A stretch of DNA of 20,474 nucleotides from a virus. The translations under genes were made by a program, and so were the position numbers. This document shows, piece after piece, positions 1,454 to 20,474 of this stretch. The stretch spans positions 1-20,474 of the IMG/VR virus record IMGVR_UViG_3300048597_000677; one strand, 5' to 3'. The notes beneath the pieces were generated by a model. That model was not told the origin of the DNA. It ran no database searches and saw only the letters and a list, made by a program, of their open reading frames with translations. Numbering within the stretch: position 1 is the first letter of the stretch; the number at the start of each line of letters is the position of its first letter.

Positions 1454-3487
1454 ATGAATGTATCCTCTAGCCTGGGTGAACAGCCAACGACACCAGACCG
1501 TCGCACGGGCCGCTCATTCTACGCGGCGCCTGTCGCAGAGTTTCGTATTACCGATGACGATGCGATCATTGGACGGCTTTCTTCCCGCCACGTCGCCTTC
1601 CATGCTGCCGCCGAGGCCGAGCAGCTTCGTGCCTGGGCGCGCGAAATCGAAATCCTGAAGGAGACCTTCGCAAAGCTCGGCTCGCTCTGCGACGACTGGC
1701 AGCTGCTCCTCGAAATCCCACTGCTGCGGCTCGGAAAACGGATCGACGCGGTAGTTCTCGCGCCCGGAGTCGTAGGTGTGATCGAATTCAAGATCAACGC
1801 GGCTGGGTTTCAGGGCGTCGATCGCGTCCAGACTGAACGCTACGCTCAATCCCTCAGCGATTTCCACCAGGCTTCACAGCAGCGGCTTATCTTGCCGATC
1901 CTTTGCGCCGAGCGGGCTCGGGCGAGGCCGCCAGCGACTACGTTGATCGAAGGCGTCGGCACCCTAATGGAGGTCAATGCGGCGACGCTCGCCGACGCGT
2001 TTGTGGTGCTGCAGGCTCATGTCGATCCGAATGCTGCCACCATTGACGCGCACGGGTTCGACTACTCACCGTACCGGCCGACCCCCAACATCGTAGAGGC
2101 TGCGCAGGCGCTCTATGCCGGGCACGAGATCGCAGACATTGGGCGCGGCGACGCGGCCGATGCAGAGTTGCAGGCTGCGGCAGCGGCACTGCAAGAAATC
2201 GCTGCTGATGCTGAGGCGGCGCGCGCCAAAGTTGTCTGCTTTGTGACCGGCGCACCTGGCGCCGGCAAGACGCTGCTCGGCTTGGACCTCGCACTCAAGA
2301 GTCGATCGGGGAGCCGTCCTGCGGCGCTTCTCTCGGGTAACCGACCACTGGTCCATGTTCTAACTGAGGCTCTGGCGGAAGACAGCGCCGCGCGCGGCGT
2401 GATGCCGAAGACCGAAGCGCGACGTTTCGCTGACGCAGCCATTCAGAACCTGCTTGGATACTTGAAGGAGCACACAGACGGGGCGCCGCCGCCGGAGCAT
2501 GTGATCGTCTTCGACGAGGCACAGCGCGCTTGGGATGCCGAGGTCGGCAAGGAACTCATGGGCCGGCCGAGTTCCGAGCCCGAACTGTTTCTAGAGATCC
2601 TCGACCGCTTGGACTGGGCCTGCCTGGTCTGCCTGGTTGGTCCTGGCCAAGAGATAAATCGCGGGGAAGGTGGCCTCGCACTCTGGGGGGAAGCTCTACG
2701 GGCGGCGCGGAGCGCGGGTAGTCGTTGGCGTGTTGTAGCCGCGCCCCAGGCGGTTGACGGCGGGCCGGACGTGCCCGGTTCCGGCATGTTCGCGGAGGGC
2801 GGACTCGGCGGGGTCGAGGTTCGCCGCGAGCCGGCATTGCACCTTGCGAACGCAATCCGGGCGTATCGAAATCCACTTCATGCCCAGTGGGTGGCGCACC
2901 TTCTGGTTGGCGACGTTGCGGAGGCGAGGGCCCTGGCTGCTAGAATGGATGCCCCGCCGGCACTGATAACGCGTGAGCTCTCCGTAGCGAAGCAATGGCT
3001 CCGTCAACGGCGGCGGGGTGGTCGGACGGTCGGCCTGCTCGCGAGTTCTGGCGCGGTCCGCCTAGTCGGTGACGGAGTGCCGCCTGCGCCGAGATCGAAT
3101 GAGTTGCACCCAATCGGCCACTGGTTCTTGAAGCCCTTCACGGATTTCCGCAGCGCCGGGGCGCTTGAGACCCCGATGAGCGAGTTCGGGTGCCAGGGAC
3201 TCGAGTTGGATTACGCCTGTCTGTGTTGGGGCGGCGACCTGATTTGGACCGACCAGGGTTGGCTTCCGCGCATGATGCGTGCGCCTCGATGGCAGATTGC
3301 GCGAGACTCGGAAAAGCAGCGTTTTCGGCTGAATGGCTACCGCGTGCTACTCACGCGGGCGCGGGCTGGTCTCGTGCTGTTCGTGCCGCGTGGCGAGGCT
3401 GACGATCCGACACGTGCCTCGGCCGAGATGGACGCCTGTGCGGAGGCTCTCCAAGCAGCCGGGTGCGCTCAACTCTTGGAGCGGTGA
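1454..3487 (+). CDS. PD-(D/E)xK-like nuclease fused to DUF2075/Schlafen-type SF1 helicase
   Basis: The 677-residue protein has two parts. Residues about 50-150 look like a restriction-type nuclease core: Glu87, then KRIDAVV with Asp98, then VIEFK with Glu111 and Lys113, the order expected of a PD-(D/E)xK site. Residues about 255-677 are a superfamily 1 ATPase/helicase of the DUF2075 type: Walker A GAPGAGKT (266-273), Walker B VIVFDEAQ (350-357), a motif like EFGCQGLELD (577-586) and a final arginine motif YRVLLTRAR (629-637). No membrane segment is seen, so it should act in the cytoplasm on DNA or RNA. The first ATG is used; the ribosome binding site is poor. The gene stands alone, head to tail with nothing, flanked by two copies of a recombinase partner gene. 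Nuclease-helicase fusions of this build are common in defence islands; an antiphage role is inference. Confidence 0.85.
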   Translation: MNVSSSLGEQPTTPDRRTGRSFYAAPVAEFRITDDDAIIGRLSSRHVAFHAAAEAEQLRAWAREIEILKETFAKLGSLCDDWQLLLEIPLLRLGKRIDAVVLAPGVVGVIEFKINAAGFQGVDRVQTERYAQSLSDFHQASQQRLILPILCAERARARPPATTLIEGVGTLMEVNAATLADAFVVLQAHVDPNAATIDAHGFDYSPYRPTPNIVEAAQALYAGHEIADIGRGDAADAELQAAAAALQEIAADAEAARAKVVCFVTGAPGAGKTLLGLDLALKSRSGSRPAALLSGNRPLVHVLTEALAEDSAARGVMPKTEARRFADAAIQNLLGYLKEHTDGAPPPEHVIVFDEAQRAWDAEVGKELMGRPSSEPELFLEILDRLDWACLVCLVGPGQEINRGEGGLALWGEALRAARSAGSRWRVVAAPQAVDGGPDVPGSGMFAEGGLGGVEVRREPALHLANAIRAYRNPLHAQWVAHLLVGDVAEARALAARMDAPPALITRELSVAKQWLRQRRRGGRTVGLLASSGAVRLVGDGVPPAPRSNELHPIGHWFLKPFTDFRSAGALETPMSEFGCQGLELDYACLCWGGDLIWTDQGWLPRMMRAPRWQIARDSEKQRFRLNGYRVLLTRARAGLVLFVPRGEADDPTRASAEMDACAEALQAAGCAQLLER

Positions 3488-3545: not shown

Positions 3546-3920
3546 TCAACGAGGCTGTGCATGCCATTCCATCGGAAAGGGCTCCAGTACCCGCGCCAGC
3601 GTCACCTCCGATCCCTGTTTCCCGTCGAGGATCGCTTCGACGATGTCGGGCGCGAGCAGCGTGAGGCGCAGGACGCGGGTCATGTAGGAGGGCGCGATCC
3701 CCTCGCGATCGGCTAGTTCGGCGATGGTGGCGAACTCGCCCGACTCCAGCATCCTCTTCCAGCGGAACGCGCGCCCCAGCGCCTTGACCAGCGTGTTGTC
3801 CGTCCTCCGCGGTTGCGTGGCGCCTTCCGGTGACTGCATCTCCTTCCGTCCGCCACGCTTCACGACGCGGAACGGCACGTGGAGCGTCACAGTCTCGGGG
3901 ATAGGCGCACCGCGGGTCAT
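3546..3920 (-). CDS. Recombinase-associated ParB-type HTH protein (124 aa)
   Basis: The product has a basic N-terminus (residues 1-45) and a helix-turn-helix region of the ParB/KorB kind (about residues 62-105: FATIAELADREGIAPSYMTR followed by VLRLTLLAPDIVEAILDG). In this element family it always follows the serine recombinase, and is often annotated as phage-related protein. The ATG at 3920 overlaps the recombinase stop as ATGA and is preceded by GGGAG nine bases upstream, so the longer open frame further upstream is not used. A DNA-binding accessory role, for instance helping the recombinase choose sites or direction, is inferred from position and fold only. A broken copy lies at 1103-1433. 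Confidence 0.85.
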   Translation of the reverse strand: MTRGAPIPETVTLHVPFRVVKRGGRKEMQSPEGATQPRRTDNTLVKALGRAFRWKRMLESGEFATIAELADREGIAPSYMTRVLRLTLLAPDIVEAILDGKQGSEVTLARVLEPFPMEWHAQPR

Positions 3921-5227
3921 GCGGCTGCTCCCATGTCTCCGGCTAGCGTCTCTTGCGCGAGACCGCCGAGACCGTCCACGCGCAGGCTTACGTCCAGCCC
4001 GTCCGTGCCTATGTCGACCCGTTCGACCAGCAGCGCCACGATCCGCGCCTGCTCGGCGGGGAACAGTTCGTCCCACAACGGGTCGAACTGCTGCAGAGCA
4101 GCGCGGGCGGCCGCCTCGGTGATATCGGCGGTATGGGCGCGCGCCGCCTTCCACGTGCCCGCCACGATCTCGGGCTGGCGGAAGACAACACGCAACTGGT
4201 CGATGACCGCCGCCTCGATCTCACCCGCGGGGACGCGACCGATCGGACACGAACCAGCGCCATGCTTCAACACCGTCTGGCTGACGTAGTAGCGGTAGAG
4301 CTTGCCGCCCCTGCGAGTATGGGTGGGCGAGAACGCTGCGCCATCAGGGCCAAACAGTAGCCCCTTCAGCAGCGCGGGCGTCTCGGCCCGGGTTCGTGCG
4401 GCGCGCTGCCGCGGGCTCACCTGCAGGATGGTGTGGACCTTGTCCCATGTAGCGGCGTCAACAATGGCGTCATGCTCGCCGGGATAGCTGTCGCCCTTGT
4501 AGACCGCCTCACCGATGTAAACCCGGTTGTTGAGGATCCGATAGAGGTCCTTCTTGTCGATCGGCTTCCCGCTCTTCCTGGTGATCCCGCGCGCGGTTGC
4601 CTCATTAGCCAGCACCGTGCCCGAGCCAATCTCGATGAAACGCGCGAAGATCCAGCGCACCTGCTCGGCCTCGACCGGGTTCACCACCAGCTTGCGGTTT
4701 CCGACGTCGTAGCCGAGCGGCGGGTTGCCCCCCATCCAAATGCCCTTCATCCGGCTCGCGCGGAACTTGTCACGGATGCGCTCGGCGGTCACCTCCCGTT
4801 CGAATTGTGCAAAGGACAGGAGGATATTGAGCGTCAGCCGGCCCATGGAGGTCGTGGTATTGAATGCCTGCGTGATGGAGACGAACGTGACGCCATTGCG
4901 ATCGAACACCTCGACCAGCTTCGAGAAGTCCATGAGCGAGCGCGAGAGCCGGTCGATCTTGTAGACCACGACCACGTCGATCAGCCCGTCCTCGATGTCG
5001 GTGAGCAGATGCTGCAGGGCAGGGCGGTCCAGTGTGCCCCCGGAGATGCCGCCGTCGTCGTACTGATCGCGGACCAGCACCCAGCCCTCGGACCGCTGGC
5101 TGGCAATGTAGGCCTCGCAGGCCTCCCGCTGGGCGTGGAGCGAGTTGAACTCCTGCTCGAGCCCCTCCTCGGAGGACTTGCGGGTATAGACGGCGCAGCG
5201 GAGCTTGCGGACGATCTTTTCGGTCAT
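3917..5227 (-). CDS. Large serine recombinase (436 aa)
   Basis: The resolvase catalytic domain covers about residues 9-155: YTRKSSEEG with the nucleophile Ser18, DRPAL (67-71), KIDRLSRS (90-97) and QFEREVTAERIR (141-152). A recombinase DNA-binding domain follows (about 165-275, with NPVEAEQVRWIFARF and LYRILNNRVYIGEAVYKG). The region normally holding the zinc ribbon (about 285-345) keeps GLLFGPDG and YRYYVSQ but has only one Cys, so it probably binds no zinc; this seems usual for the subfamily. It should cut and rejoin DNA at attachment or resolution sites. The ATG at 5227 has GGAGGAG just upstream and overlaps the DUF2924 stop as ATGA; an in-frame ATG 156 bases earlier lies inside that gene and is rejected. 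It is the likely integrase of the element. Confidence 0.93.
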   Translation of the reverse strand: MTEKIVRKLRCAVYTRKSSEEGLEQEFNSLHAQREACEAYIASQRSEGWVLVRDQYDDGGISGGTLDRPALQHLLTDIEDGLIDVVVVYKIDRLSRSLMDFSKLVEVFDRNGVTFVSITQAFNTTTSMGRLTLNILLSFAQFEREVTAERIRDKFRASRMKGIWMGGNPPLGYDVGNRKLVVNPVEAEQVRWIFARFIEIGSGTVLANEATARGITRKSGKPIDKKDLYRILNNRVYIGEAVYKGDSYPGEHDAIVDAATWDKVHTILQVSPRQRAARTRAETPALLKGLLFGPDGAAFSPTHTRRGGKLYRYYVSQTVLKHGAGSCPIGRVPAGEIEAAVIDQLRVVFRQPEIVAGTWKAARAHTADITEAAARAALQQFDPLWDELFPAEQARIVALLVERVDIGTDGLDVSLRVDGLGGLAQETLAGDMGAAA

Positions 5228-5676
5228 GCGCTCCTCCGGTGGTTCCTGAGGCCGAAGAAGACCCAGCCGTTCCAGCGGGTGCCGGTAATCGCGCGGGCGA
5301 TGGCGGAGAGCGACTTGTAGGGCCGTCCCTGCCATTCGAACCCGTCCGCGGTGACGGTGACAACATGCTCGACGCACTGCCACTCGCGGATCAGCCGCGT
5401 TCCGGTGATCGGCATGTGGTCCGCGCGGATGCGGCTCTTCTTGCGGTCACCGCCGTCCAGCTCCTCACCCAGCCGCTCAAGCCGCCGGACAGTCTCAGGC
5501 TTGAGCCCGCCATAGGCCAGTTCCTGGATGCGGTAGGCGAGGCGGCTCTCAAGGTAGCGCCGGTTGAACGGCGGTGGCTCGCTGTCGAACAGTTCGCGCC
5601 ACTGCGCCTTCAGGTCTGGCGTCGGCGTGGTCTTCAGCGCGGCTAGGAGCGCGGGAATGGGGTCGTGGCTGGTCAT
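5224..5676 (-). CDS. DUF2924 domain protein (150 aa)
   Basis: I recognise DUF2924: residues 20-75 hold the helical core with LKAQWRELF, PPFNRRYLESRLAYRIQEL and GGL, and residues 88-150 hold the typical ending, where a GTRLIREWQ segment leads to a short beta part (HVVTVTADGFEWQGRPYKSL) and SAIARAITGTRWNGWVFFGL. The C-terminal part resembles a small DNA-binding or clamp-like domain seen next to serine recombinases in alphaproteobacteria. The biochemical function is unknown. The ATG at 5676 has GGAG nine bases upstream and overlaps the preceding stop as ATGA; the gene overlaps the recombinase start by four bases. Such tight coupling with the recombinase implies a shared task, possibly target choice. 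The long upstream extension of the frame overlaps the primase and is not coding. Confidence 0.88.
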   Translation of the reverse strand: MTSHDPIPALLAALKTTPTPDLKAQWRELFDSEPPPFNRRYLESRLAYRIQELAYGGLKPETVRRLERLGEELDGGDRKKSRIRADHMPITGTRLIREWQCVEHVVTVTADGFEWQGRPYKSLSAIARAITGTRWNGWVFFGLRNHRRSA

Positions 5677-5867
5677 GTGGTTCTCCGATTGATCCGGGTT
5701 GCATGACCGCTCCGGTCGGGCGCGGAGTGAAGAGAACTCTCTCCGGTGTCGGCAGATAGTCCGCTTGACTGTCGCAGGCGAAGGCGAACGACGCCGCGGG
5801 CAAGGATCGTGCAGAGCTCGCGGCGGCGCTCGAGCGGGGACAGGTGGGAGGGGTGGAGCGGATTCAT
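5673..5867 (-). CDS. Small recombinase-cassette protein (64 aa)
   Basis: The 64-residue product begins with the recognisable N-terminus MNPLHPSHLSPLERRRELC, followed by a helical run TILARGVVRLRLRQS, then a Ser-rich, basic tail. Proteins with this opening are regularly found just upstream of DUF2924 and recombinase genes in alphaproteobacteria; no function is known to me. Its ATG overlaps the primase stop as ATGA, with GAGG eight bases upstream, and its own stop overlaps the DUF2924 start in the same way, so translation is very likely coupled through the whole cassette. The conserved opening and the double overlap make it a real gene despite its size. Confidence 0.75.
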   Translation of the reverse strand: MNPLHPSHLSPLERRRELCTILARGVVRLRLRQSSGLSADTGESSLHSAPDRSGHATRINRRTT

Positions 5868-8206
5868 ATCGCGACCTCGGCGGCGGTGCCGTTTCGAATG
5901 AGCGAAATCCCCTGCCAGCCCCGGACGCCACGTGACTTTGCGTCCGAGAGGCCTCGGCTACGAAGTGCTTCACCAAGTGCCTTGCTGGAGCCGGCAGGGT
6001 GGCCAAGGGCGTCGGCCCAATCCCTCCACGAAGCAAAAAGGCGGGTGGATGCCGTCCAGGCTTCAGGCTCCGCGCTGCAGCACTCGACGAACCACTGCCC
6101 AACCAGATCCTCGCTTGCGAAGTAGTCCTTGGCGGCCTCCGCAACAGAAGGCGGAGGCATCAGCCCATGTCTGCGCCACTCAGCGCAGCCTTCCAGCATC
6201 CAACCAAGGATGCCGTCCCGCTCTTCAATCAGTTTGTCCTGGAGTGTTCCGTCCCGCGCATCCTCCGGAATGGTGACCGCGAAGGGCACCATGTGAAGAC
6301 GGCGGCGCATCGCCTCCCCGACGCTTGTGATCGCCGGGCGGTGGTTGCCCATGACGACGAGCTTGAACTGTGGCCGAAACTCGAAGTGATCGCAGCGCAT
6401 AAAGTTCGCCCGTATGCTTTCGCCCCCGGTGACCATCTTGATGCGGGCTTCCGACCAGGCGCGACCGGCTTCGGTCTCCGGTACGATCACGAGGCGGGCC
6501 GCCCGAAGCCCGGCGAGTTCGGTGAGGTGGCGCTCCGACTTCGACGCCATGAAGGTGTCGAGAGTTGCCGTCGCCGCGTAGCTGCCAAGGACGCGTGCGA
6601 TCGTCCCGAGGAACACAGACTTTCCGTTAGCGCCGGTGCCGTGGAGGAAGGCAAACACCTGTTCCGAGGTCTGCCCGGTGAGGCAGTAGCCGGCGAGGCG
6701 CTGGAGATACGCCTGCAGATCCCGGTCGCCTCCAGTGATGGTCACCAGGAAGCCGAGCCATCGCGGGCACTCCGTGCCCGGAGACGCGGACGTGATCTGG
6801 GTCAAGAGCAGACTCGGGTCGTGCGCAATAATCTCGCCTGTGTCGAGATCGACAATGCCGGCCGGCGTGTTCAGCAGAATCGCGTGCGCGTCCCACTCCG
6901 CCGTCCGCGTGGCAATCGAGGGATCACTTCCAACGATCCTCAGCGCAGCGGCAATGGTCTTGTCGCTGGCGATGCGTCGCGCGTGGTTGGGGTTGTCCGC
7001 AGTTGAGGCTGCCGTGCGGCAAACTTGCCGCATCATCTCCCGGGTGGAACCTGTCTCATCTCGTTCCCAGACCCTTCCGCTCCAGACGAACCACGAGCCC
7101 CAGGTCTCGACACGGCGGGTCATGGACCCGTGTCGTGCGACGAAGACCGCCGCGAGCGCGTCATCGCTGTGTTTCGGGGGGACGCCGGCCAGCGCATCGC
7201 CACCCGCTCCTGCATCCATTGGCGAGCCGTATGGCATCGGCCCGTTCTTCTCGATGTCCCGCTTGAGAAGCGCGTCGAACTCGCGGCGCACCCGCGCCTC
7301 GTCCCACGGCGGGTCAATCATCGTGGTGTTGTGCTCAAGAACTGCAACGAGGGACCCCTCGATGCTGCACCGGCCGCTCCTCACGTTCCGTAGCCAGTGT
7401 CCGATGACCCGCGACATGGCCTCGAAGCGCGTGATCCCGTCCGCACCACCCGCGCGAACCCGTTGGGTCGCGAGGTCCTTCGCTGATGGGCCGTGCGTGT
7501 CATGCAGGACGGGATCCACGCCGATCTCATGGCTCGCGATCGCGGGCATCGCGACTACCGCATCCGCGAGATCCTTTAGGTCATATTCGACCGGGACGTG
7601 CGCGAGCAGCCGGACAGGAGACCGCTTGCCGTTCTTGCCGTGGATCGATCCGGCCACGCGGATCGGCTGGTGGATGCTGCCAAAGGAGCCATCGCCACCG
7701 ACCTTCGCCGCAATCGCCGCGCGGAGAGCAGCAACTGTGATCAGATCTTCGCCTTCGGCGGGTTCGGTCAATCTCCAGTAGAGGTGGAGTTTCTTCTGGC
7801 CGACCTCAGTCAGTCCTCCCGATGCCACTTCGATGGTGGGCGGGCCGAGATACCGGACGAGATGATCCCGGGCCGCACCGATATCGCCGGTGTCGAGATC
7901 GACGAGGACAACGCCGGTCTGGGCGATGTCGTGCGCTTTTGCGGAACCGGTTGTCTGGACAGTGCCGGGAACGACGTAGAGACCCCGGAATGCCTCCGCA
8001 GCGCGGGGCGCGATCCTGATGAGTCGGTCGGCGGTCGCAGGGACGTGCGGAAACTCGACGTGCGGCGTCTGAACAGTCGTCCCCGTCTCGGACAGCACCC
8101 TGATCGGCACAAACCCATCCAGGTAGCCGAAGAGCACGTCGCAGAAGGTTCTGATGGCGTCGGCGTCGATCGGCGGCAGCTCGGTTTGATTGGAATACGC
8201 AGTCAT
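5864..8206 (-). CDS. P4-type phage/plasmid primase-helicase (780 aa)
   Basis: The N-terminal third (about 20-215) looks like a RepB/archaeo-eukaryotic-type primase domain, with VVLVDLDTGD (Asp103, Asp105) and a later SIHQPIRVAGSIHGKNGKR block. The C-terminal half (about 415-700) is a superfamily 3 helicase of the D5/P4 alpha kind: Walker A GTGANGKS (523-530), a Walker B-like VIVPETE (573-579), sensor motif VVMGNHRP (617-624) and an arginine-rich RRRLHMVPF (634-642). It should prime and unwind element DNA for autonomous replication. I chose ATG 8206 because it overlaps the preceding stop as TGATG and has GGGGA about ten bases upstream; a further ATG at 8215 has that motif too close. Family length is typical (700-850). 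It belongs to the same leftward operon as the recombinase. Confidence 0.93.
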   Translation of the reverse strand: MTAYSNQTELPPIDADAIRTFCDVLFGYLDGFVPIRVLSETGTTVQTPHVEFPHVPATADRLIRIAPRAAEAFRGLYVVPGTVQTTGSAKAHDIAQTGVVLVDLDTGDIGAARDHLVRYLGPPTIEVASGGLTEVGQKKLHLYWRLTEPAEGEDLITVAALRAAIAAKVGGDGSFGSIHQPIRVAGSIHGKNGKRSPVRLLAHVPVEYDLKDLADAVVAMPAIASHEIGVDPVLHDTHGPSAKDLATQRVRAGGADGITRFEAMSRVIGHWLRNVRSGRCSIEGSLVAVLEHNTTMIDPPWDEARVRREFDALLKRDIEKNGPMPYGSPMDAGAGGDALAGVPPKHSDDALAAVFVARHGSMTRRVETWGSWFVWSGRVWERDETGSTREMMRQVCRTAASTADNPNHARRIASDKTIAAALRIVGSDPSIATRTAEWDAHAILLNTPAGIVDLDTGEIIAHDPSLLLTQITSASPGTECPRWLGFLVTITGGDRDLQAYLQRLAGYCLTGQTSEQVFAFLHGTGANGKSVFLGTIARVLGSYAATATLDTFMASKSERHLTELAGLRAARLVIVPETEAGRAWSEARIKMVTGGESIRANFMRCDHFEFRPQFKLVVMGNHRPAITSVGEAMRRRLHMVPFAVTIPEDARDGTLQDKLIEERDGILGWMLEGCAEWRRHGLMPPPSVAEAAKDYFASEDLVGQWFVECCSAEPEAWTASTRLFASWRDWADALGHPAGSSKALGEALRSRGLSDAKSRGVRGWQGISLIRNGTAAEVAI

Positions 8207-8430
8207 CAGCAGCATTCCCCGCCGCGCCGAGCGCGATCTTCAAACGCGACGACATCGCTGACACGATAGAAAATCGAGCCACCAATGCGGAGATATGCCG
8301 GTCCATAGCCCTCGGCCCTCCAGCGTTGTAACGTGCGGAGGGACTTCTTCCAGCGCTCAGCGACGTCGCTCTCCCGGATCAGGGCAAGCGGGTCGTCGAC
8401 TTGCTGGACGATCGAATTCTTCGGGTTCAT
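8206..8430 (-). CDS. AlpA/excisionase-like HTH protein (74 aa)
   Basis: A short winged-helix protein of the MerR/AlpA kind: ALIRESDVAERWKKSLRTLQ at residues 14-33, then RWRAEGYGPAYLRIGG and a final FYRVSDVVAFE strand-helix. Such proteins regulate excision and early genes in phages and satellites. The frame stays open upstream to a TTG at 8508, but that TTG belongs to a repeated TTGTCAC box, and the 8431-8508 stretch holds repeats typical of a control region, so the ATG at 8430 is preferred. It is the first gene of the leftward cassette; its stop touches the primase start (TGATG). It probably controls its own promoter, judging by the repeats immediately upstream. Confidence 0.8.
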   Translation of the reverse strand: MNPKNSIVQQVDDPLALIRESDVAERWKKSLRTLQRWRAEGYGPAYLRIGGSIFYRVSDVVAFEDRARRGGECC

Positions 8431-8441
8431 CAATTCTGCTC

Positions 8442-8479
8442 GCTTTCGAAGCCTCTGCAATCTTTGTAAGGCTTTCGAA
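8442..8479. repeat. GCTTTCGAA direct repeats before the AlpA-like gene
   Basis: GCTTTCGAA occurs at 8442-8450 and again at 8471-8479, a 29-base period, each containing the palindrome TTCGAA. They lie 12-49 bases upstream of the AlpA-like ATG. Position and symmetry suggest an operator for the element's own HTH regulator, but the bases could alternatively encode part of a longer N-terminus if the TTG start were used. Confidence 0.4.
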
Positions 8480-8501
8480 TTCACCGGGCACTTCGTGCGA
8501 C

Positions 8502-8600
8502 GTGACAACGAGCGCCACGGCGTGACAGAAATCAGGTCCTTTCGCGGGTTTCGCGCTGGTCAAGGGAAATGGTGTGACAATACCCAGGTTGATGTGACAA
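8502..8600 (-). promoter_or_regulatory. Four leftward TTGTCAC boxes
   Basis: On the plus strand GTGACA occurs at 8502-8507, 8522-8527, 8574-8579 and 8594-8599. The starts are 20, 52 and 20 bases apart, close to whole helical turns. On the minus strand each reads TTGTCAC or CTGTCAC and points toward the AlpA/primase cassette. The same box occurs twice near 11517-11533, pointing the other way. I see no convincing -10 element paired with any box, so a regulator binding site is more likely than four -35 elements. Confidence 0.5.
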
Positions 8601-8633: not shown

Positions 8634-10505
8634 CTAGTCAGCCGATTCGACGATCACGATTGTCGGATCGAGACGATGGCCCTTTGACACCTTGTTCTGG
8701 ATCAGAAGGGCTGCGTTTGGTTCGTGTCCATGGATGTCCCGGTAGTTCTTTGCGAGTTCCTTCCGGCACCGATTTACGTACTGTCGCGGCGTGGCAAGCC
8801 CGAGATCAGCCAGTTCACTGACCCGCTCCAAATGAACATAGCGGTGATCTTGTGGAGAGAGCCCAGCTGCCCGATCAGTCTCGAGGTAGCTACGAAGTGC
8901 ATGAGGAACACGGGCCGGAGCGCCGGAAACCCTGCCCAATCCCTGAACGATTACGACATAACGCTTTCCCTCTTGGAGGAATGCAACGCGCAACGGCCCC
9001 GCGGGATCAGGAACGTAATCAGTAGGAGGCGCCTCGACATCCCACTCGCCTCCGTCCCCACCCACAATCGTTTCAATCACGGCGCCTTCTGCGAGCGGCG
9101 AATCTGAACTCCCCACCCAAGTGCGGATGAGAGACGTGGCCGGAAAGGTCTGCTCTGCCAATTCTGCGAAATGCTCGCTGATTGTCCTACCGAGGACACT
9201 CAAGACGGCCGCGCCGTGCCGCCGGTGCATGTCGACCGTCTTCGTGAGGACGCTTTCACTGTCTTCAGTGATATGCCCTCTCGCAATGCGGGAAAACTCA
9301 TGGCCAAACTTCGTGAGGAAGTCGTCCGTGCTTGCGGCGGCCAACCATTTCGCGTGGCGGGTCCACTCGTTCGCAAGGTTGCGCGAGTGTTCCTTGTCGC
9401 GAGATCCAAACAGGACCTCAGTCGCGTAGTTGTCCGCAAAATCGAATTCTCCGAGGCCTGCAGCCAGGATGCCGAACCGGCGATCAAGGCATTGCGAACA
9501 GGCTCCACAATGTGTGTGGCGAGAGTTCTGTTCACGAACGCTGGTGCAACTGACAGTCTCGGCGATTTGCTGTTGGCCACCATGCTCGGCAATCCGACGC
9601 ACCACCTCTGTCTTCGTCTTCCAGGCGTAGACATTCTCGATAGGAATGTGCGCCGGTCCAACTAGGTCAAGCAGCGTCGAGAGATGCCTGAGCGCAAGCG
9701 GATGGGTCGTCCGCGTCGCCATTGTACCTACGATCTGCCGGGACAGCGGCAAGTTGTGGCTGATGATGCCGTTCTCGAAGAAGTCGATGCGCTTTGCGCC
9801 AAAGCCGTGCGCAACTGCAAGAGCCAATGCACTGAAGAGCAGGGATCTTGATCGCTGAGTGCTTTCGACGGCCTCCTGTCCCACCCGGCGTGCCATGATC
9901 TCCAAGTGAAGTACCCGGCCCGGAAAGCGGCTCGCCAGATACCCTCCAAGTTCATGCTGCCGCGGGATTACTTTCTGGGCGGATCGGTGGGTGACGAGAA
10001 CCACCCTTTCGGCGGTGGAATCGAGCGTCTCGAGAGCGCCGGCGAACGAGTCGAGCCCTCCGGAAAACAGAATGACCCTGTCTGCCTGAAAGATCGGGGA
10101 CTCCCGCGCGAGGGGCAGATACTCCTGCTCGTCACCAGTTGCCTCCAGCCGGGCAAATTCCACCGACACCCGATCTTCCGTGAGGAACTCGATTGCATTG
10201 ACCAGCGCGCTCCGAACTGACCGATCGCCCCAGAACTGGAGATCGCGCACATGGAACGTGAAACGGAAGCTTCGTCTCCAGTCTTGACCCATGTCGGGCC
10301 GTGTTGCGCCGCCGCGGGGGACGCTTCCGTCGGCATGAAAGACGGCAGAAGCGATCTCGAGGAAATCGAGGTGACGGTCATCCAGGTTCCGGAAAAGATG
10401 CTTGTCGATTGCATCGGACCTGAGTCGGAATGTCGGTCTCTGTCCGTTGATCTGCACGACCAGAGGTTCCGTGCGACCGTCCACCTCGACCACCGCATTA
10501 GGCAT
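8634..10505 (-). CDS. QueC-like PP-loop enzyme with extended ends (QatC-like, 623 aa)
   Basis: Residues about 142-345 are a QueC (7-cyano-7-deazaguanine synthase)-type core: PP-loop VILFSGGLDSFAG with SGGLDS at 148-153, an ENGI block near 244, and a zinc site of Cys320, Cys333, Cys336 and Cys339 (HCGACSQC). QueC proper is about 230 residues; here there are ~145 extra N-terminal and ~280 extra C-terminal residues, the last 55 of which resemble a winged helix (NRCRKELAK ... SKGHRLDP). QueC makes preQ0 with ATP and ammonia; QueC-like proteins also occur in Qat (QatC) and type IV CBASS (Cap9) antiphage systems. The ATG at 10505 overlaps the upstream stop by eight bases (ATGCCTAA) and has GGAGG ten bases before it; an ATG 33 bases earlier is less likely. 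No queD, queE or queF neighbour exists, which argues against housekeeping preQ0 synthesis. Defence is inferred. Confidence 0.85.
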   Translation of the reverse strand: MPNAVVEVDGRTEPLVVQINGQRPTFRLRSDAIDKHLFRNLDDRHLDFLEIASAVFHADGSVPRGGATRPDMGQDWRRSFRFTFHVRDLQFWGDRSVRSALVNAIEFLTEDRVSVEFARLEATGDEQEYLPLARESPIFQADRVILFSGGLDSFAGALETLDSTAERVVLVTHRSAQKVIPRQHELGGYLASRFPGRVLHLEIMARRVGQEAVESTQRSRSLLFSALALAVAHGFGAKRIDFFENGIISHNLPLSRQIVGTMATRTTHPLALRHLSTLLDLVGPAHIPIENVYAWKTKTEVVRRIAEHGGQQQIAETVSCTSVREQNSRHTHCGACSQCLDRRFGILAAGLGEFDFADNYATEVLFGSRDKEHSRNLANEWTRHAKWLAAASTDDFLTKFGHEFSRIARGHITEDSESVLTKTVDMHRRHGAAVLSVLGRTISEHFAELAEQTFPATSLIRTWVGSSDSPLAEGAVIETIVGGDGGEWDVEAPPTDYVPDPAGPLRVAFLQEGKRYVVIVQGLGRVSGAPARVPHALRSYLETDRAAGLSPQDHRYVHLERVSELADLGLATPRQYVNRCRKELAKNYRDIHGHEPNAALLIQNKVSKGHRLDPTIVIVESAD

Positions 10506-11280
10506 CGGCCGCTTGCCTCCGACGAAGTTCCGAGACAATCTTCTTCATCGCCACAGCTCCGAAAGTCCTCGCATCCTCAGTGTCGAAGAACCCCTTCTGG
10601 TAGGCGGTCTTCCCATACCAGCCTGTTGAGAATTCCTTGATGATGCGGGTGTTCTCCGAAACGAATTGACCAAGTTCCCGGTCAAACATCGTCCGGTCTC
10701 CCTGGCTCTCGAACCGCTGACCAACGCCAATGCGCGTCGATAGTGTTCGGTCGAGCCAGTAGCTCAAAGTCTCGCTCAGGAGATATCCAAAGAAGCCGCG
10801 GCAATACTCCGGGACTGCCACGCTTGAGGAGAGTTGTCTCGCTGTCGCCTGAACCTCTTCCGTCGTGGCTTCGAATAGCCCCGGCAGTCTGTCGCCGATG
10901 AATGTGTTGAGGGTCCGGTTCAGTGCACGGCCCGCCAGGTCACCGAAGTCGGTGCGATTGGAGGCATGCCGTCCGACTTCATCCAGCCGATCGGCCGCCG
11001 CTAGCGTGAGGTCGAGCAGTGTAGGTTGCCCACGGATGTCAAGGTTAAGTCGGCGAAGCGCGTCCCCGAAGTCTGTCGATCTCGCCGCCAGTGGGATGGC
11101 GAGCATGAGGCGGACGGCCTCGACAAACACTTGGTCGTTTGCAGCGCTCACTAGGGACTTCTCGGCGGCCGCGGCGCTCGCCGAAACCACGGACACTGTG
11201 GCAGCCCCGCGGTCGATGAGATCAACGACTTCGCGCCATCGTCGTGTGCCCGGCAGGATACCGAGTGTGTTGTGACCCAT
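10498..11280 (-). CDS. Partner of QueC-like enzyme (QatB-like, 260 aa)
   Basis: The product starts MGHNTLGILPGTRRW and is otherwise mostly helical, with an Ala-rich middle (about 35-60), a hydrophobic helix around RGFFGYLLSETLSYWLDRTL (about 170-190) and a basic end KKIVSELRRRQ. I know of proteins with the MGHNTLG opening next to QueC-like genes, but no function is established to my knowledge. QatB of the Qat system also begins Met-Gly and also precedes the QueC-like gene, so a QatB-like role is a reasonable inference from position and N-terminus rather than proven homology. Start: the only good ATG, with GGGGAGG about ten bases upstream. It overlaps the QueC-like gene by eight bases, so the two are translationally coupled. 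A 19-base imperfect palindrome lies just upstream. Confidence 0.75.
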   Translation of the reverse strand: MGHNTLGILPGTRRWREVVDLIDRGAATVSVVSASAAAAEKSLVSAANDQVFVEAVRLMLAIPLAARSTDFGDALRRLNLDIRGQPTLLDLTLAAADRLDEVGRHASNRTDFGDLAGRALNRTLNTFIGDRLPGLFEATTEEVQATARQLSSSVAVPEYCRGFFGYLLSETLSYWLDRTLSTRIGVGQRFESQGDRTMFDRELGQFVSENTRIIKEFSTGWYGKTAYQKGFFDTEDARTFGAVAMKKIVSELRRRQAADA

Positions 11281-11309
11281 GGGCGTCCGACCTCCCCTTC
11301 GAAGCCCCT

Positions 11310-11328: not shown

Positions 11329-11362
11329 GCGTGCCGCAAGTCAAACGCCTGATTGCGGCGAT

Positions 11363-11461
11363 GGACGGATTGGACGGATTGGACACAAGAGACCATTAGT
11401 CCACCCGTACGCGCGCGTAAGCAACAAATGAATTCTCGTGTCCAATCCGTCCAACGTGTCC
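11363..11461. repeat. Inverted arrays of 9-bp GGAC iterons; possible origin
   Basis: On the plus strand 11363-11389 is three contiguous 9-mers, GGACGGATT, GGACGGATT and GGACACAAG. On the minus strand 11461-11435 is GGACACGTT, GGACGGATT and GGACACGAG. The two arrays face each other across 45 bases, and contain a perfect 17-base inverted repeat (11370-11386 against 11438-11454). The 45-base core includes an AT-richer part (AAGCAACAAATGAATT). Iterons in two arrays are typical of origins bound by P4-type primases or plasmid Rep proteins, and the window encodes such a primase 3 kb away. A regulator site or recombination site is the alternative. The repeat structure is certain, its function is not. 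Confidence 0.6.
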
Positions 11462-11516
11462 ACGCGATTTGACCCACCCGCGGCGAACGTCGCTCTTTGT
11501 CGCCGTCCTACGCCTC

Positions 11517-11627: not shown

Positions 11628-12905
11628 ATGGGCAAGGCGATACGCGACGCGAGGGCACTCGCGGAGGGGCAGGGACTCCGGATCGAGCACCGGGCAGTGG
11701 GCGATCTGATCCCCTACGCGCGGAACGCCCGAACGCATTCGGAGGCGCAGATTGCGCTGATTGCGGGCTCGATCCGCGAGTACGGCTTCACAAACCCGGT
11801 GCTCGTCGACGGGGAGAACGGCATCATCGCCGGCCACGGCCGTGTGATGGCGGCGCGGACGCTCGGGCTCGCCACGGTGCCTGTGATCGAGCTTGGCCAT
11901 CTCAACGAGGCGCAGAAGAAGGCCTACATCCTCGCCGACAACCGGCTGGCCGAGCAGGCCGGCTGGGACAGCGCACTTCTCGCGCTCGAACTCGGCGACC
12001 TGTCGGAACTGGGTGTGGACCTCGGCACGCTCGGCTTCGACGCCGGCGAGATCGACGCTCTCCTCAACCGGGGTCAGCCCGACCCGCGGGAAGAGGAGAC
12101 GCCTGAGCCGCCGGAGGTGCCGGTGTCCCGGCTCTGGGATGTCTGGGTCCTTGGCCGGCATCGGCTGATCTGTGGGGACTCGACGGACCCCGCAACCGTC
12201 GAACGGCTCCTCGCCGGTGTCCGGCCGCATCTGATGTCGACCGATCCACCGTTTGGCGTGAACTACGACCCCGACTGGCGCAACAGGGCCGGGGCGTCGG
12301 AAACGAAGCGTACCGGCAAGGTCCTGAACGACCACAGGGCGGACTGGCGCGAGGCATGGGCGCTGTTCCCCGGAGACGTGGCCTACGTCTGGCACGGGGC
12401 GCTCCATGCGACCACCGTGGCCGAGAGCCTCGTGGCGACGGGCTTTGACGTGCGCTCGCAGATCATCTGGGCCAAGGAGAGGCACGTCCTCTCCCGCGGG
12501 CACTACCACTGGCAGCACGAGCCCTGCTGGTATGCGGTCCGGAAGGGAGGCACGGGCCACTGGAGCGGGGACCGCACGCAATCCACCCTCTGGCACATCC
12601 CGAGCCGCGACCAGGACGCCGCGACGATCCACGGCACGCAGAAGCCGGTGGAGTGCATGCGTCGGCCTATCCTTAACAACTCGAGCCCGGGGCAGGCGGT
12701 CTACGAGCCATTCTCCGGATCGGGAAGCACGATCATCGCGGCCGAGACTACAGGACGGGCGTGCTACGCGGTGGAGTTGGACCCGGCCTACGTCGACGTC
12801 GCTGTTCGCCGGTGGGAGGCGTTCACGGGGCAGGAGGCTGTGCTGGAGGGGCAGGGGAGCAGCTTCGCCGAGGTCTCCACTGAGCGCGTTGGGGAGGAAA
12901 TATGA
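11628..12905 (+). CDS. ParB-domain site-specific DNA methyltransferase (425 aa)
   Basis: Residues about 18-125 are a ParB/Srx-like N-terminal domain (LIPYARNARTHSEAQI, then IIAGHGRVMAAR at 66-77, then ADNRLAEQAGWD). Residues about 165-400 are an N6-adenine/N4-cytosine methyltransferase: catalytic DPPF (206-209), TQKPVECMRRPI (337-348) and the S-adenosylmethionine site EPFSGSGST (360-368). The catalytic motif precedes the cofactor motif, the order of beta-class enzymes such as CcrM. Fusions of this kind sit just before terminase genes in alphaproteobacterial prophages and probably mark phage DNA against host nucleases. No cognate restriction gene is nearby, so it is an orphan. The ATG at 11628 has a GAGG-type ribosome binding site; a long antisense frame over it is a shadow. 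Confidence 0.92.
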   Translation: MGKAIRDARALAEGQGLRIEHRAVGDLIPYARNARTHSEAQIALIAGSIREYGFTNPVLVDGENGIIAGHGRVMAARTLGLATVPVIELGHLNEAQKKAYILADNRLAEQAGWDSALLALELGDLSELGVDLGTLGFDAGEIDALLNRGQPDPREEETPEPPEVPVSRLWDVWVLGRHRLICGDSTDPATVERLLAGVRPHLMSTDPPFGVNYDPDWRNRAGASETKRTGKVLNDHRADWREAWALFPGDVAYVWHGALHATTVAESLVATGFDVRSQIIWAKERHVLSRGHYHWQHEPCWYAVRKGGTGHWSGDRTQSTLWHIPSRDQDAATIHGTQKPVECMRRPILNNSSPGQAVYEPFSGSGSTIIAAETTGRACYAVELDPAYVDVAVRRWEAFTGQEAVLEGQGSSFAEVSTERVGEEI

Positions 12906-14063: not shown

Positions 14064-14374
14064 GCCATCTCTGCAGGCGTGTGATGCGTGCTGGCGTAGC
14101 AATCTGCTGATGGCGGACCTCAACCGTCGTCGAGTACCAGTGCTGACGAGTGGACTGAGTAATCTCGGCCTGTGGCGGTGTCTTCAGCGTCGCAGGCCGG
14201 GCGCTCAGACACTGATGCACCGCACGGAATGCGGCGGTTGACATGCGACCCCCTGCGTCATCCCGATAAACGAGATGGTCGACGTCCGCACCGCAGGCCA
14301 ATGAATTTGCTACACTTCCTGCCCGGTGCGAGCGATGTACAGACCTGCGCAACGAACGTCAGGCAGGTGTGGAC
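14064..14374. other. Gene-free region upstream of the small serine recombinase
   Basis: About 310 bases with no convincing gene on either strand; no frame resembles the start of a terminase large subunit. It holds TTGACA at 14238-14243 without a well-spaced -10, an extended -10-like TGCTACACT at 14308-14316, and an inverted repeat CAGACCTGC/GCAGGTGTG (14341-14371, one mismatch) whose right arm covers the ribosome binding site of the recombinase. Resolvases commonly keep their recombination site in this position, but I cannot identify the paired subsites by eye. Confidence 0.4.
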
Positions 14375-15166
14375 ATGGCGGATGGTGGGGATGCGGGCAC
14401 GGGCGTGAGCCACGGCCGCAGGCTCGTCGCCTACGAGCGGGTGTCGACGGCCCGGCAGGGCCGATCGGGTCTCGGCCTCGATGCGCAGCGCAAGGCGATC
14501 GAGGACTTCGCGGCGACACGCGGCGCGCAGGTCCTCGCCCGGTTCACCGAGGTCGAGAGCGGGCGCAAGGCAGACCGGCCGGAACTGGCCAAGGCGCTGC
14601 ACCTTGCCAGGGTCACCGGGGCAACGCTCGTCATCGCCAAGCTGGATCGCCTGAGCCGCAACGCGGCGTTCCTCCTGACCCTGCAGGGCAGCGGCGTGCG
14701 CTTCCTCGCCGTTGACATGCCCGAGGCCAACGACCTGACCGTCGGCATCATGGCGCTGGTGGCACAGGCCGAGCGCGAGGCGATCAGTCGCCGGACGAAG
14801 GAGGCGCTGGCAACCGCGAAGGCGCGTGGTGTGAAGCTCGGCAACCCCAACGGGGCGGCGGCGCTGAGGCGCGCAGGGGAGGGCGGTGCAGCGCTCCGTG
14901 CGGCGGTCGCGAAGAACGCCGACGCCTTCGCCCGTGACCTCGCGCCAGTCCTCGCGGATATCCGCGCCCACGGTGACCTCTCGCTTCGTGCCATTGCGGC
15001 CGAACTGACCACCCGCGGGATCAGAACGCGCCGCGGCGGTGCGTGGCACGTGTCGAACGTCAGGGCACTGCTCCAGAGGGTGCCGGACCAGGTTGCAGGG
15101 CTTGTCGCCAACAAGGGTCGCCGCCAGCCTGCCGAAGTTGTCTCTCAGACCTTCGCTGCCCAGTAG
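14375..15166 (+). CDS. Small serine recombinase/resolvase (263 aa)
   Basis: The resolvase catalytic domain spans about residues 16-150: YERVSTARQG with nucleophile Ser24, FTEVESGRKADRPEL (57-71), KLDRLSRNAAFLL (89-101) and AQAEREAISRRTKEAL (130-145). A C-terminal helix-turn-helix follows (about 203-235: LRAIAAELTTRGIRTRR then GGAWHVSNVRALLQR), and a 27-residue unconserved tail. There is no large recombinase domain, so it should act as a resolvase or invertase. I chose ATG 14375 because AGGCAGG lies seven bases before it; GTG at 14369 is too close to that motif. It interrupts the expected terminase order. A truncated relative with roughly 80% nucleotide identity, by eye, lies at 19902-20474. 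Confidence 0.9.
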   Translation: MADGGDAGTGVSHGRRLVAYERVSTARQGRSGLGLDAQRKAIEDFAATRGAQVLARFTEVESGRKADRPELAKALHLARVTGATLVIAKLDRLSRNAAFLLTLQGSGVRFLAVDMPEANDLTVGIMALVAQAEREAISRRTKEALATAKARGVKLGNPNGAAALRRAGEGGAALRAAVAKNADAFARDLAPVLADIRAHGDLSLRAIAAELTTRGIRTRRGGAWHVSNVRALLQRVPDQVAGLVANKGRRQPAEVVSQTFAAQ

Positions 15167-19901: not shown

Positions 19902-20474
19902 CAGGTCCAGCGCTTGGAGATCACGGAGGTCGAGAGCGGGAGGAAGGCGGATCGGCCGGAGCTGAAGAAGGCGCTCGATCTGGCGCGGCTCACTGGCGCT
20001 ACGCTCGTCATCGCCAAGCTCGATCGGCTCTCCCGCAACGCGGCGTTCCTACTGACGCTGCGGGACAGTGGAGTGAGGTTCCTCGCCTGTGACATGCCGG
20101 AGGCGAACGACCTTACCGTCGGCATCATGGCCCTCGTGGCCCAGCAGGAGCGGGAGGCGATCTCACGGCGGACGAAAGAGGCGCTCGCGGCAGCAAAGGC
20201 GCGGGGCGTGCAGCTCGGCAACCCGAACGGAGCAGCTGCGCTCAGGCGGGCAGGGAACCGCGGGGTGGCATTCAGGAAGGCTGTCTCGGCCAATGCGGAC
20301 CGGTTTGCCGAGGACCTCGCGCCGGTGGTTCGGGCCATCTGGGGCAAGGGGCACACTTCACTCCGCGCTATCGCGACCGAGCTCAGTGCCCGTGGGATGC
20401 GAACCCGACGCGGTGGTCAGTGGAGGGTGTCGAATGTGAAGGGGCTACTGGCGAGGATCAGGCGATTGGGCTGA
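19902..20474 (+). pseudogene. 5'-truncated serine recombinase copy
   Basis: From about 19902 the reading frame matches the recombinase at 14375-15166 from its residue ~52 to ~236: TEVESGRKADRPEL, then IAKLDRLSRNAAFLLTL, DMPEANDLTVGIMALVAQ, then the C-terminal helix-turn-helix with RTRRGGQWRVSNVKGLL, ending at TGA. The first ~50 residues, including the YxRVST catalytic Ser motif, are missing; upstream bases down to the in-frame stop at 19854 do not resemble the lost part. A 186-codon product could start at TTG 19914 but could not cut DNA. It might still bind recombinase sites through its HTH. The difference from the full copy (about one base in five, by eye) means it is a separate older homologue, not a recent duplicate. 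Confidence 0.8.

Follow-up and report, generated by a model that had tools for sequence, protein, structure and literature searches.

A two-gene QatB/QatC-like module as candidate anti-phage cargo of a phage-type element

Can a QueC-family enzyme act in phage defence with a single partner protein, in the absence of the other components of Qat? The question is raised by positions 8634-11280 (minus strand) of a 20,474-nucleotide stretch of viral DNA (IMG/VR record IMGVR_UViG_3300048597_000677, positions 1 to 20,474; the whole stretch is called the window here), where two overlapping genes encode a QatB-like partner, upstream, and a QueC-family enzyme, downstream. To our knowledge Qat is a four-gene system, the chemistry and effector step of which are unsolved. 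A preliminary description, made from the sequence alone, had proposed that the two genes form a QatB/QatC-like system lacking QatA and QatD. The pair appears to be a minimal relative of Qat that had not been described before, and we consider it probable that it is a natural two-gene, QatBC-like anti-phage cargo module, in which the N-terminal glycine of the partner is modified by the enzyme.

The gene pair and the predicted folds of its products

The partner gene (10498-11280, minus strand) codes for 260 amino acids starting MGHNTLGILPGTRRW, and was defined by its open reading frame (ORF), the family alignment and an AlphaFold2 model with 9y01_A as the best PDB match. The enzyme gene occupies 8634-10505 on the same strand. 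Its listed ORF of 634 amino acids opens at a TTG (10538). Since the relatives align from residue 12 and a GGAGG ribosome-binding site (10516-10520, minus strand) is found within the 3' end of the partner gene, the ATG of residue 12 (10503-10505) was taken as the likely start, giving a protein of 623 amino acids; the residue numbers used below follow the 634-residue ORF. The enzyme ATG overlaps the partner stop codon in an 8-nt overlap, ATGCCTAA (10498-10505, minus strand), which was read as translational coupling. The partner is preceded by its own ribosome-binding site, GGGGAGG (11291-11297, minus strand), followed by ATG-GGT-CAC. Both ORFs were found where the preliminary description had placed them, and the coupling to a helical Met-Gly partner which it had proposed is borne out by the overlap, by this start and by the all-helical model presented below. 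With a GC content of about 0.59 the pair lies below most of the window, which has about 0.65.

The AlphaFold2 model of the enzyme, built from 54 relatives, had a mean predicted local distance difference test score (pLDDT) of 88.6. Residues 10-476 of the model could be superposed on QatC of P. aeruginosa (9y01_B) with a Z of 32.5 and a root-mean-square deviation (rmsd) of 3.1 over 394 of 428 residues (VIA-align), while the same program gave Z 14.3 against QueC (3bl5) and Z 14.1 against Cap9 (9nto). The QatC-like core (residues 12-478; 9105-10505, minus strand) accordingly comprises an N-terminal extension, the PP-loop QueC domain and C-terminal helices. The sequence comparisons point in the same direction: the solved QatC sequences 9vlk (3e-30) and 9zee (2e-23) were matched, and so was the Pfam QueC family (PF06508, E 5.5e-6). 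The NCBI QatC model NF041925 matched residues 52-374 (E 2e-57, 194.9 bits) below its curated cut-off of 280, which was reached in none of the 16 family-carrying genomes.

The active-site residues were compared over 72 non-redundant enzyme relatives. SGGxDS, an RxR motif, ENG, [TS]RTTHP and the zinc cysteines were each present in 72/72. In the window enzyme these include the pyrophosphate-binding loop SGGLDS (residues 159-164; 10047-10064, minus strand) and the zinc-site cysteines C331, C344, C347 and C350 (9489-9548, minus strand), so that the QueC-like PP-loop and the four-Cys zinc site of the preliminary description are confirmed. Of the canonical QueC motifs, all three of which are found in the E. 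coli QueC control, YxQxHxxE and YPDC occurred in 0/72 and VPxRN in 1/72 of the relatives. Where QueC and Cap9 have the Tyr/Asp that binds the nucleobase, QatC has T278 and T280, and Qat defence requires these threonines (PMC13279940). Their equivalent, by alignment to the PDB QatC, is TRTTHP (residues 275-280; 9699-9716, minus strand), in which the threonine pair of this loop is T275/T277. Since TRTTHP and the other QatC-type residues are kept and the QueC motifs are lost, the enzyme is of the QatC type, and synthesis of preQ0 by it appears unlikely.

What the preliminary description had overlooked is the end of the enzyme. The last approximately 150 residues are a separate domain that has no QatC counterpart, reached through a disordered linker (residues 481-505; 9024-9098, minus strand; pLDDT under 50). 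In the model of this domain (residues 515-630; 8649-8996, minus strand) strands, three helices and a C-terminal hairpin follow each other in the order of an OmpR-type winged helix. Pfam gave no significant match for it; one relative (L001) had a weak match (0.054), and L155, an enzyme of a different C-terminal class, matched Trans_reg_C at 6e-9. From the predicted topology and these weak or related-class matches we assign the domain as a putative winged helix, which would probably bind nucleic acid. The C-terminus is exchangeable within the family: among 161 enzymes, 90 had the window type (class wh1), 58 another regulator-like domain, 3 a nuclease and 10 other ends, and the classes had no similarity to one another. 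The three nuclease-ended enzymes (L002, L068 and L075), from Leptospira, a member of the Planctomycetota and a cyanobacterial metagenome-assembled genome (MAG), end in a DpnII/MboI-type restriction endonuclease domain (PF18742, E 1e-8 to 1e-10) with the PD-x9-ExK motif intact. Immune proteins commonly keep their core constant while the end that acts on DNA is exchanged, and the same arrangement here suggests that the response is executed or steered by the C-terminal end.

In the subclass with enzymes of about 700 residues, a gene for a LexA-type DNA-binding protein of about 77 amino acids (PF01726, 2e-14; no protease domain) stands 34-40 nt upstream of the pair in 41/57 loci (L021 6837-7070, L070 6839-7072 and 39 others), and in none of the window's subclass. 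The loci with this gene are a three-gene subtype.

The partner model, built from 80 relatives, was all-helical with a pLDDT of 93.9 and a predicted template modelling score of 0.90, residues 1-12 lying outside the fold. Among solved structures two QatB chains came first in Foldseek (probability 1.00, E only 0.05). VIA-align placed the partner on QatB 9y01_A with Z 12.3 (207/215 residues, rmsd 3.8) and the next entry at Z 5.8, it being borne in mind that helical proteins may score high Z values by chance. The assignment to QatB is therefore made jointly from this margin in fold, from the position of its gene, immediately 5' of that for a QatC-type enzyme, and from the N-terminal glycine. In 81 partners of less than 75% identity, Gly-2, His-3 and Leu-6 were each present in 80/81, Pro-10 in 78/81 and Trp-15 in 75/81, and the motif MGHxxLGxLPx[TS][RK]xW, at codons 1-15 (11236-11280, minus strand; outside the modelled fold up to residue 12), is nearly invariant. 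QatB likewise has a conserved start, MGTS, with Pro-16/Trp-18, and its glycine 2 is essential (PMC13279940). By sequence, the partner had no match in Pfam, PADLOC, NCBIfam, PHROGs or PDB; a hit to the circular bacteriocin family TIGR03651 (E 0.024) was taken as chance.

Linkage, distribution and mobile context

Single-sequence scans of the genome and viral collections gave nothing, and the family was revealed by alignments built from a relative on a Leptospira plasmid. The loci were drawn from 14 viral matches to the enzyme, 80 kept of 164 genome matches and 80 kept of 89 viral matches to the partner. In 171 loci, some of which are one contig counted twice, both genes were adjacent with the partner upstream, usually overlapping by 4-38 nt. 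The linkage holds from both sides: the enzyme adjoined the partner in 81/81 of the partner-found loci, and the partner adjoined the enzyme in 87/94 of the enzyme-found loci, most of the misses being at contig edges. When genomes were chosen by the partner alone, the enzyme was present in 14/16, mostly next door and in several cases decayed. A universal third gene was sought across the pair loci and was not found.

Traces of decay were also observed. One genome (G103:C1:2125407-2126177) has the partner gene and no QueC-like enzyme at E 1e-20, decayed or split pairs occur in G045, G256 and G017, and on a Rhodobacteraceae plasmid (L001 7833-9233) the enzyme gene lacks its N-terminal part and the partner is lost, with IS3-family transposase genes adjoining.

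The absence of QatA and QatD, claimed for the window in the preliminary description, proved to be general. Profiles built from three Qat plasmids, which recovered QatA in 9/10 and QatD in 10/10 of other Qat loci, found neither gene in any pair locus, including 108 with flanks of sufficient length (2.5 kb or more upstream and 1.5 kb or more downstream); an ATPase or TatD gene beside most relatives, which would be expected of ordinary Qat with local loss, is thus not what is seen. A QatB profile had zero matches in the pair loci. On the tree, a branch separates 13 QatC proteins from the 72 pair enzymes; with E. coli QueC as its only root, on a very long branch, the tree was used for this separation alone. 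QatA, QatD and CD-NTase were not seen among those window proteins that were scanned, nor was any queD, queE, queF or TGT-type gene, in agreement with the preliminary description, which had noted the lack of the genes of the cyclic-oligonucleotide-based antiphage signalling system (CBASS) and of the preQ0 pathway as well.

The pair was found on phage contigs, on a Leptospira noguchii plasmid and in seven further phyla, its carriers including a cyanobacterial MAG and members of the Pseudomonadota, Acidobacteriota, Planctomycetota, Thermodesulfobacteriota, Krumholzibacteriota and Omnitrophota. The frequency is low and patchy: the pair was present in 14/248 genomes of one alphaproteobacterial family and in 2/199 and 3/398 genomes of two phylum samples, the centre genome being counted each time. 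A pair filed under Oceanobacillus (Bacillota; L040) is close to alphaproteobacterial pairs and has the same phage backbone, and this assembly is probably contaminated.

The phage-type backbone proposed earlier for the window was recovered by library matches to a large serine recombinase (integrase; 3917-5323, minus strand), a P4-type primase/helicase (5864-8215, minus strand), an excisionase-like helix-turn-helix protein (8206-8508, minus strand) and a ParB-methyltransferase (11628-12905, plus strand); terminase small subunits are also present, and the window is a phage or phage-derived element. The pair is accessory in this backbone, since the enzyme was met in only 4/78 newly fetched primase loci, and the comparison of primase loci indicated that other phages of this backbone differ in gene order. 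A serine integrase lies within the locus in 97/171 cases. The pair was also found at a tRNA-Lys gene beside a tyrosine integrase (L055) and on the Leptospira plasmid, that is, in at least three element types. The stand-alone recurrence on unrelated mobile elements (phages, an island, a plasmid), which the preliminary description had suggested looking for, was thereby observed.

In nine genomes, the 106 proteins flanking the pair gave matches to 58 PADLOC models at E 1e-20, compared with 5 models for 110 control proteins of the same contigs, an excess to be read as enrichment and not as a count of systems, because the models cross-hit and four of the matches are the ParB-methyltransferase of the phage. 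The matches comprise methylases of types I-III, AbiEi/AbiEii, a DrmD/DpdE-type helicase and others. One flank protein, lying among the flanks of L027, L025, L033, L036, L056, L070, L074, L082 or L103, matches DpdE (3.6e-182), a helicase of 7-deazaguanine DNA modification systems, and may be the source of the DrmD, HmaA and BrxH matches as well.

Upstream of the pair, at 11362-11462 (strand unassigned), the window contains a dyad of TTGGACGGA-type repeats around ACGCGCGCGT. A dyad of short tandem repeats also precedes the pair in L006, L010, L013, L015 and L016 and in L024-L030, L036, L039 and L044, with a ACGCGCGCGT-type centre in many of them. The repeat word varies by phage (GGACGGATT, GCAACAGAT, GGACAGAT, TGACGGAT) and the two arms vary in concert, which fits an operator or origin read by a diversifying phage protein; the dyad of the window is probably such a phage operator or origin.

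Elsewhere on the contig, a 677-aa protein (1454-3487, plus strand) with a Schlafen-group-3 helicase domain matches the PADLOC candidate PDC-S41 (3e-205), and is by this match a probable second defence gene. Two related small serine recombinases (14369-15166 and 19914-20474, plus strand), sharing a 300-nt direct repeat that is 81% identical, with 5.4 kb between the copies, bracket a MoxR-type AAA protein and a DUF2201 metallopeptidase/VWA protein. Since the phage part ends at the terminase small subunit, the bracketed region looks like a second inserted element.

Proposed mode of action and its alternatives

The overlapping genes would give two proteins which, judging from their folds, most likely associate in the manner of QatB with QatC. 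After removal of the start Met, the Gly-His tail of the partner would enter the PP-loop active site of the enzyme. The invariant residues and the parallel with QatBC and Cap9 suggest that the enzyme, with ATP, would activate a carboxylate and couple it to the N-terminal glycine; recognition of the carboxylate probably differs from the recognition of 7-carboxy-7-deazaguanine (CDG) by QueC. The state of the partner would then control the C-terminal module of the enzyme, the predicted winged helix in the window and the PD-(D/E)XK nuclease in other members.

The linkage, the lack of QatA and QatD, the QatC and QatB folds, Gly-2, the active-site motifs and the modular C-terminus all argue for a QatBC-like anti-phage module, and so do the patchy mobile spread and the defence-rich flanks. 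A further argument is that QatB and QatC of ordinary qatABCD operons suffice against some phages, including lambda, as was shown in 2026 (PMC13279940). Several points weigh on the other side. The relation of the partner to QatB was not recovered by sequence (hhalign against 12 QatB, probability 3%), and its first helix is preceded by only about 12 residues, the disordered tail of 30-90 residues of QatB being lacking. The enrichment in the flanks has the limits given above, and the many pairs beside serine integrases fit a cargo but would also fit a part in the element's own life. Finally, we know of no settled chemistry even for QatC. It seems to us an evenly balanced matter whether the family represents a separate widespread immune class, in which a QueC-family ligase, a glycine-tailed substrate and a swappable DNA-acting module would make a complete two-gene system with modification and effector in one complex.

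The frequent serine integrases, the winged-helix C-terminus of most members and the LexA-type gene upstream of the pair in one subclass would also be expected if a QatBC-like modification pair served the mobile element, in lysogeny, excision, superinfection exclusion or gene control by the winged helix, rather than host defence. We hold this to be unlikely, since the pair is found in at least three element types, is accessory in the window's own backbone, and has nuclease-fused members which suit defence better. A toxin-antitoxin or abortive-infection system, with the partner restraining a toxic enzyme or nuclease domain and no role for the N-terminal modification, could account for the two overlapping genes, the nuclease-fused members and the decayed copies with stops in some genomes; the near-invariant glycine and the kept catalytic residues, however, point to enzymatic use of the tail, and most members have no recognisable toxic domain, so that this explanation appears improbable.

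Phages carry QueC for DNA modification, and the QueC superfamily membership, SGGxDS and the zinc site would agree with an enzyme that makes preQ0/7-deazaguanine for the modification of tRNA or of phage DNA. The loss of YxQxHxxE and YPDC throughout the relatives, the large extensions, the obligate partner and the lack of queD, queE, queF or TGT-type genes among the scanned window proteins speak against such a role, as does the failure of the related QatC to restore queuosine in a queC mutant (PMC13329287), and we regard it as very improbable. The least credible explanation, to which we give hardly any weight, is an ordinary qatABCD operon with local loss of qatA and qatD: the QatC-like enzyme and the QatB-like fold of the partner would suit it, but profiles that find these genes in true Qat loci found neither in the pair loci, the QatC proteins are separate on the tree, and the C-terminus and the N-terminal motif differ from those of Qat.

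Novelty and comparison with known systems

The family is not named in PADLOC 2023 or NCBIfam, and a search of the open-licence literature brought up no account of a pair of this kind, the defence profile library dating from 2023. Dazbog was weighed as a named two-gene QueC-like system; it gave no PADLOC model match and no paper on it was found. The novelty claimed in the preliminary description thus stands as far as these papers and profile libraries go, while the two-gene idea is less unexpected than it had been presented, because of the sufficiency of QatB and QatC mentioned above. According to Libby et al. only about a third of the QatC-cluster proteins neighbour qatA or qatD (PMC13329287), and the present family may account for some of the others, which those authors leave undescribed. 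If our interpretation holds, nature has pared Qat down to the two components shown by experiment to suffice, with a nuclease fused to the enzyme in some members. Such small systems would allow the substrate, the enzyme and the candidate effector to be tested together, the near-invariant N-terminal motif is a place to look for the modification, and a large family is added to those named so far.

The closest known system is Qat (9y01/9y02, 9vlk, 9zee), and the QatB/QatC likeness put forward in the preliminary description is supported by the folds of both proteins. Shared with it are the QatC fold over about 470 residues, SGGxDS, the TxTTHP-type loop, the four-Cys zinc site and, directly upstream, the gene for a helical partner that has the QatB fold and Met-Gly at its N-terminus. 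Unlike Qat, the pair has neither QatA (a KAP-type ATPase, upstream in Qat) nor QatD (a TatD nuclease, downstream), its enzyme falls under the NCBI QatC cut-off (194.9 compared with 280 bits) and has an extra swappable C-terminal domain, and its partner starts MGH with a short tail where QatB starts MGTS with a long one. The pair is not a member of four-gene Qat, since it was examined for QatA, QatD, the tail of QatB and a score at the QatC cut-off and has none of these.

Type IV CBASS resembles the pair in combining a QueC-family enzyme, Cap9 (9nto), of the same core fold with a protein that has glycine after the start Met. In the pair, however, the gene adjoining the enzyme encodes a QatB-fold protein with no PADLOC match and not a CD-NTase, the Tyr/Asp nucleobase residues are absent (YPDC in 0/72), no Cap10 was seen, and the enzyme has 623 amino acids compared with about 185 in Cap9. 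With canonical QueC (PF06508, 3bl5) the enzyme shares the PP-loop ATP pyrophosphatase core and the zinc site, but it differs in its lack of the QueC substrate motifs, in its N- and C-terminal extensions and in its obligate partner. The DpnII/MboI-type restriction endonucleases (PF18742), lastly, are represented by the C-terminal domain of L002, L068 and L075, in the place where the window member has its predicted winged helix.

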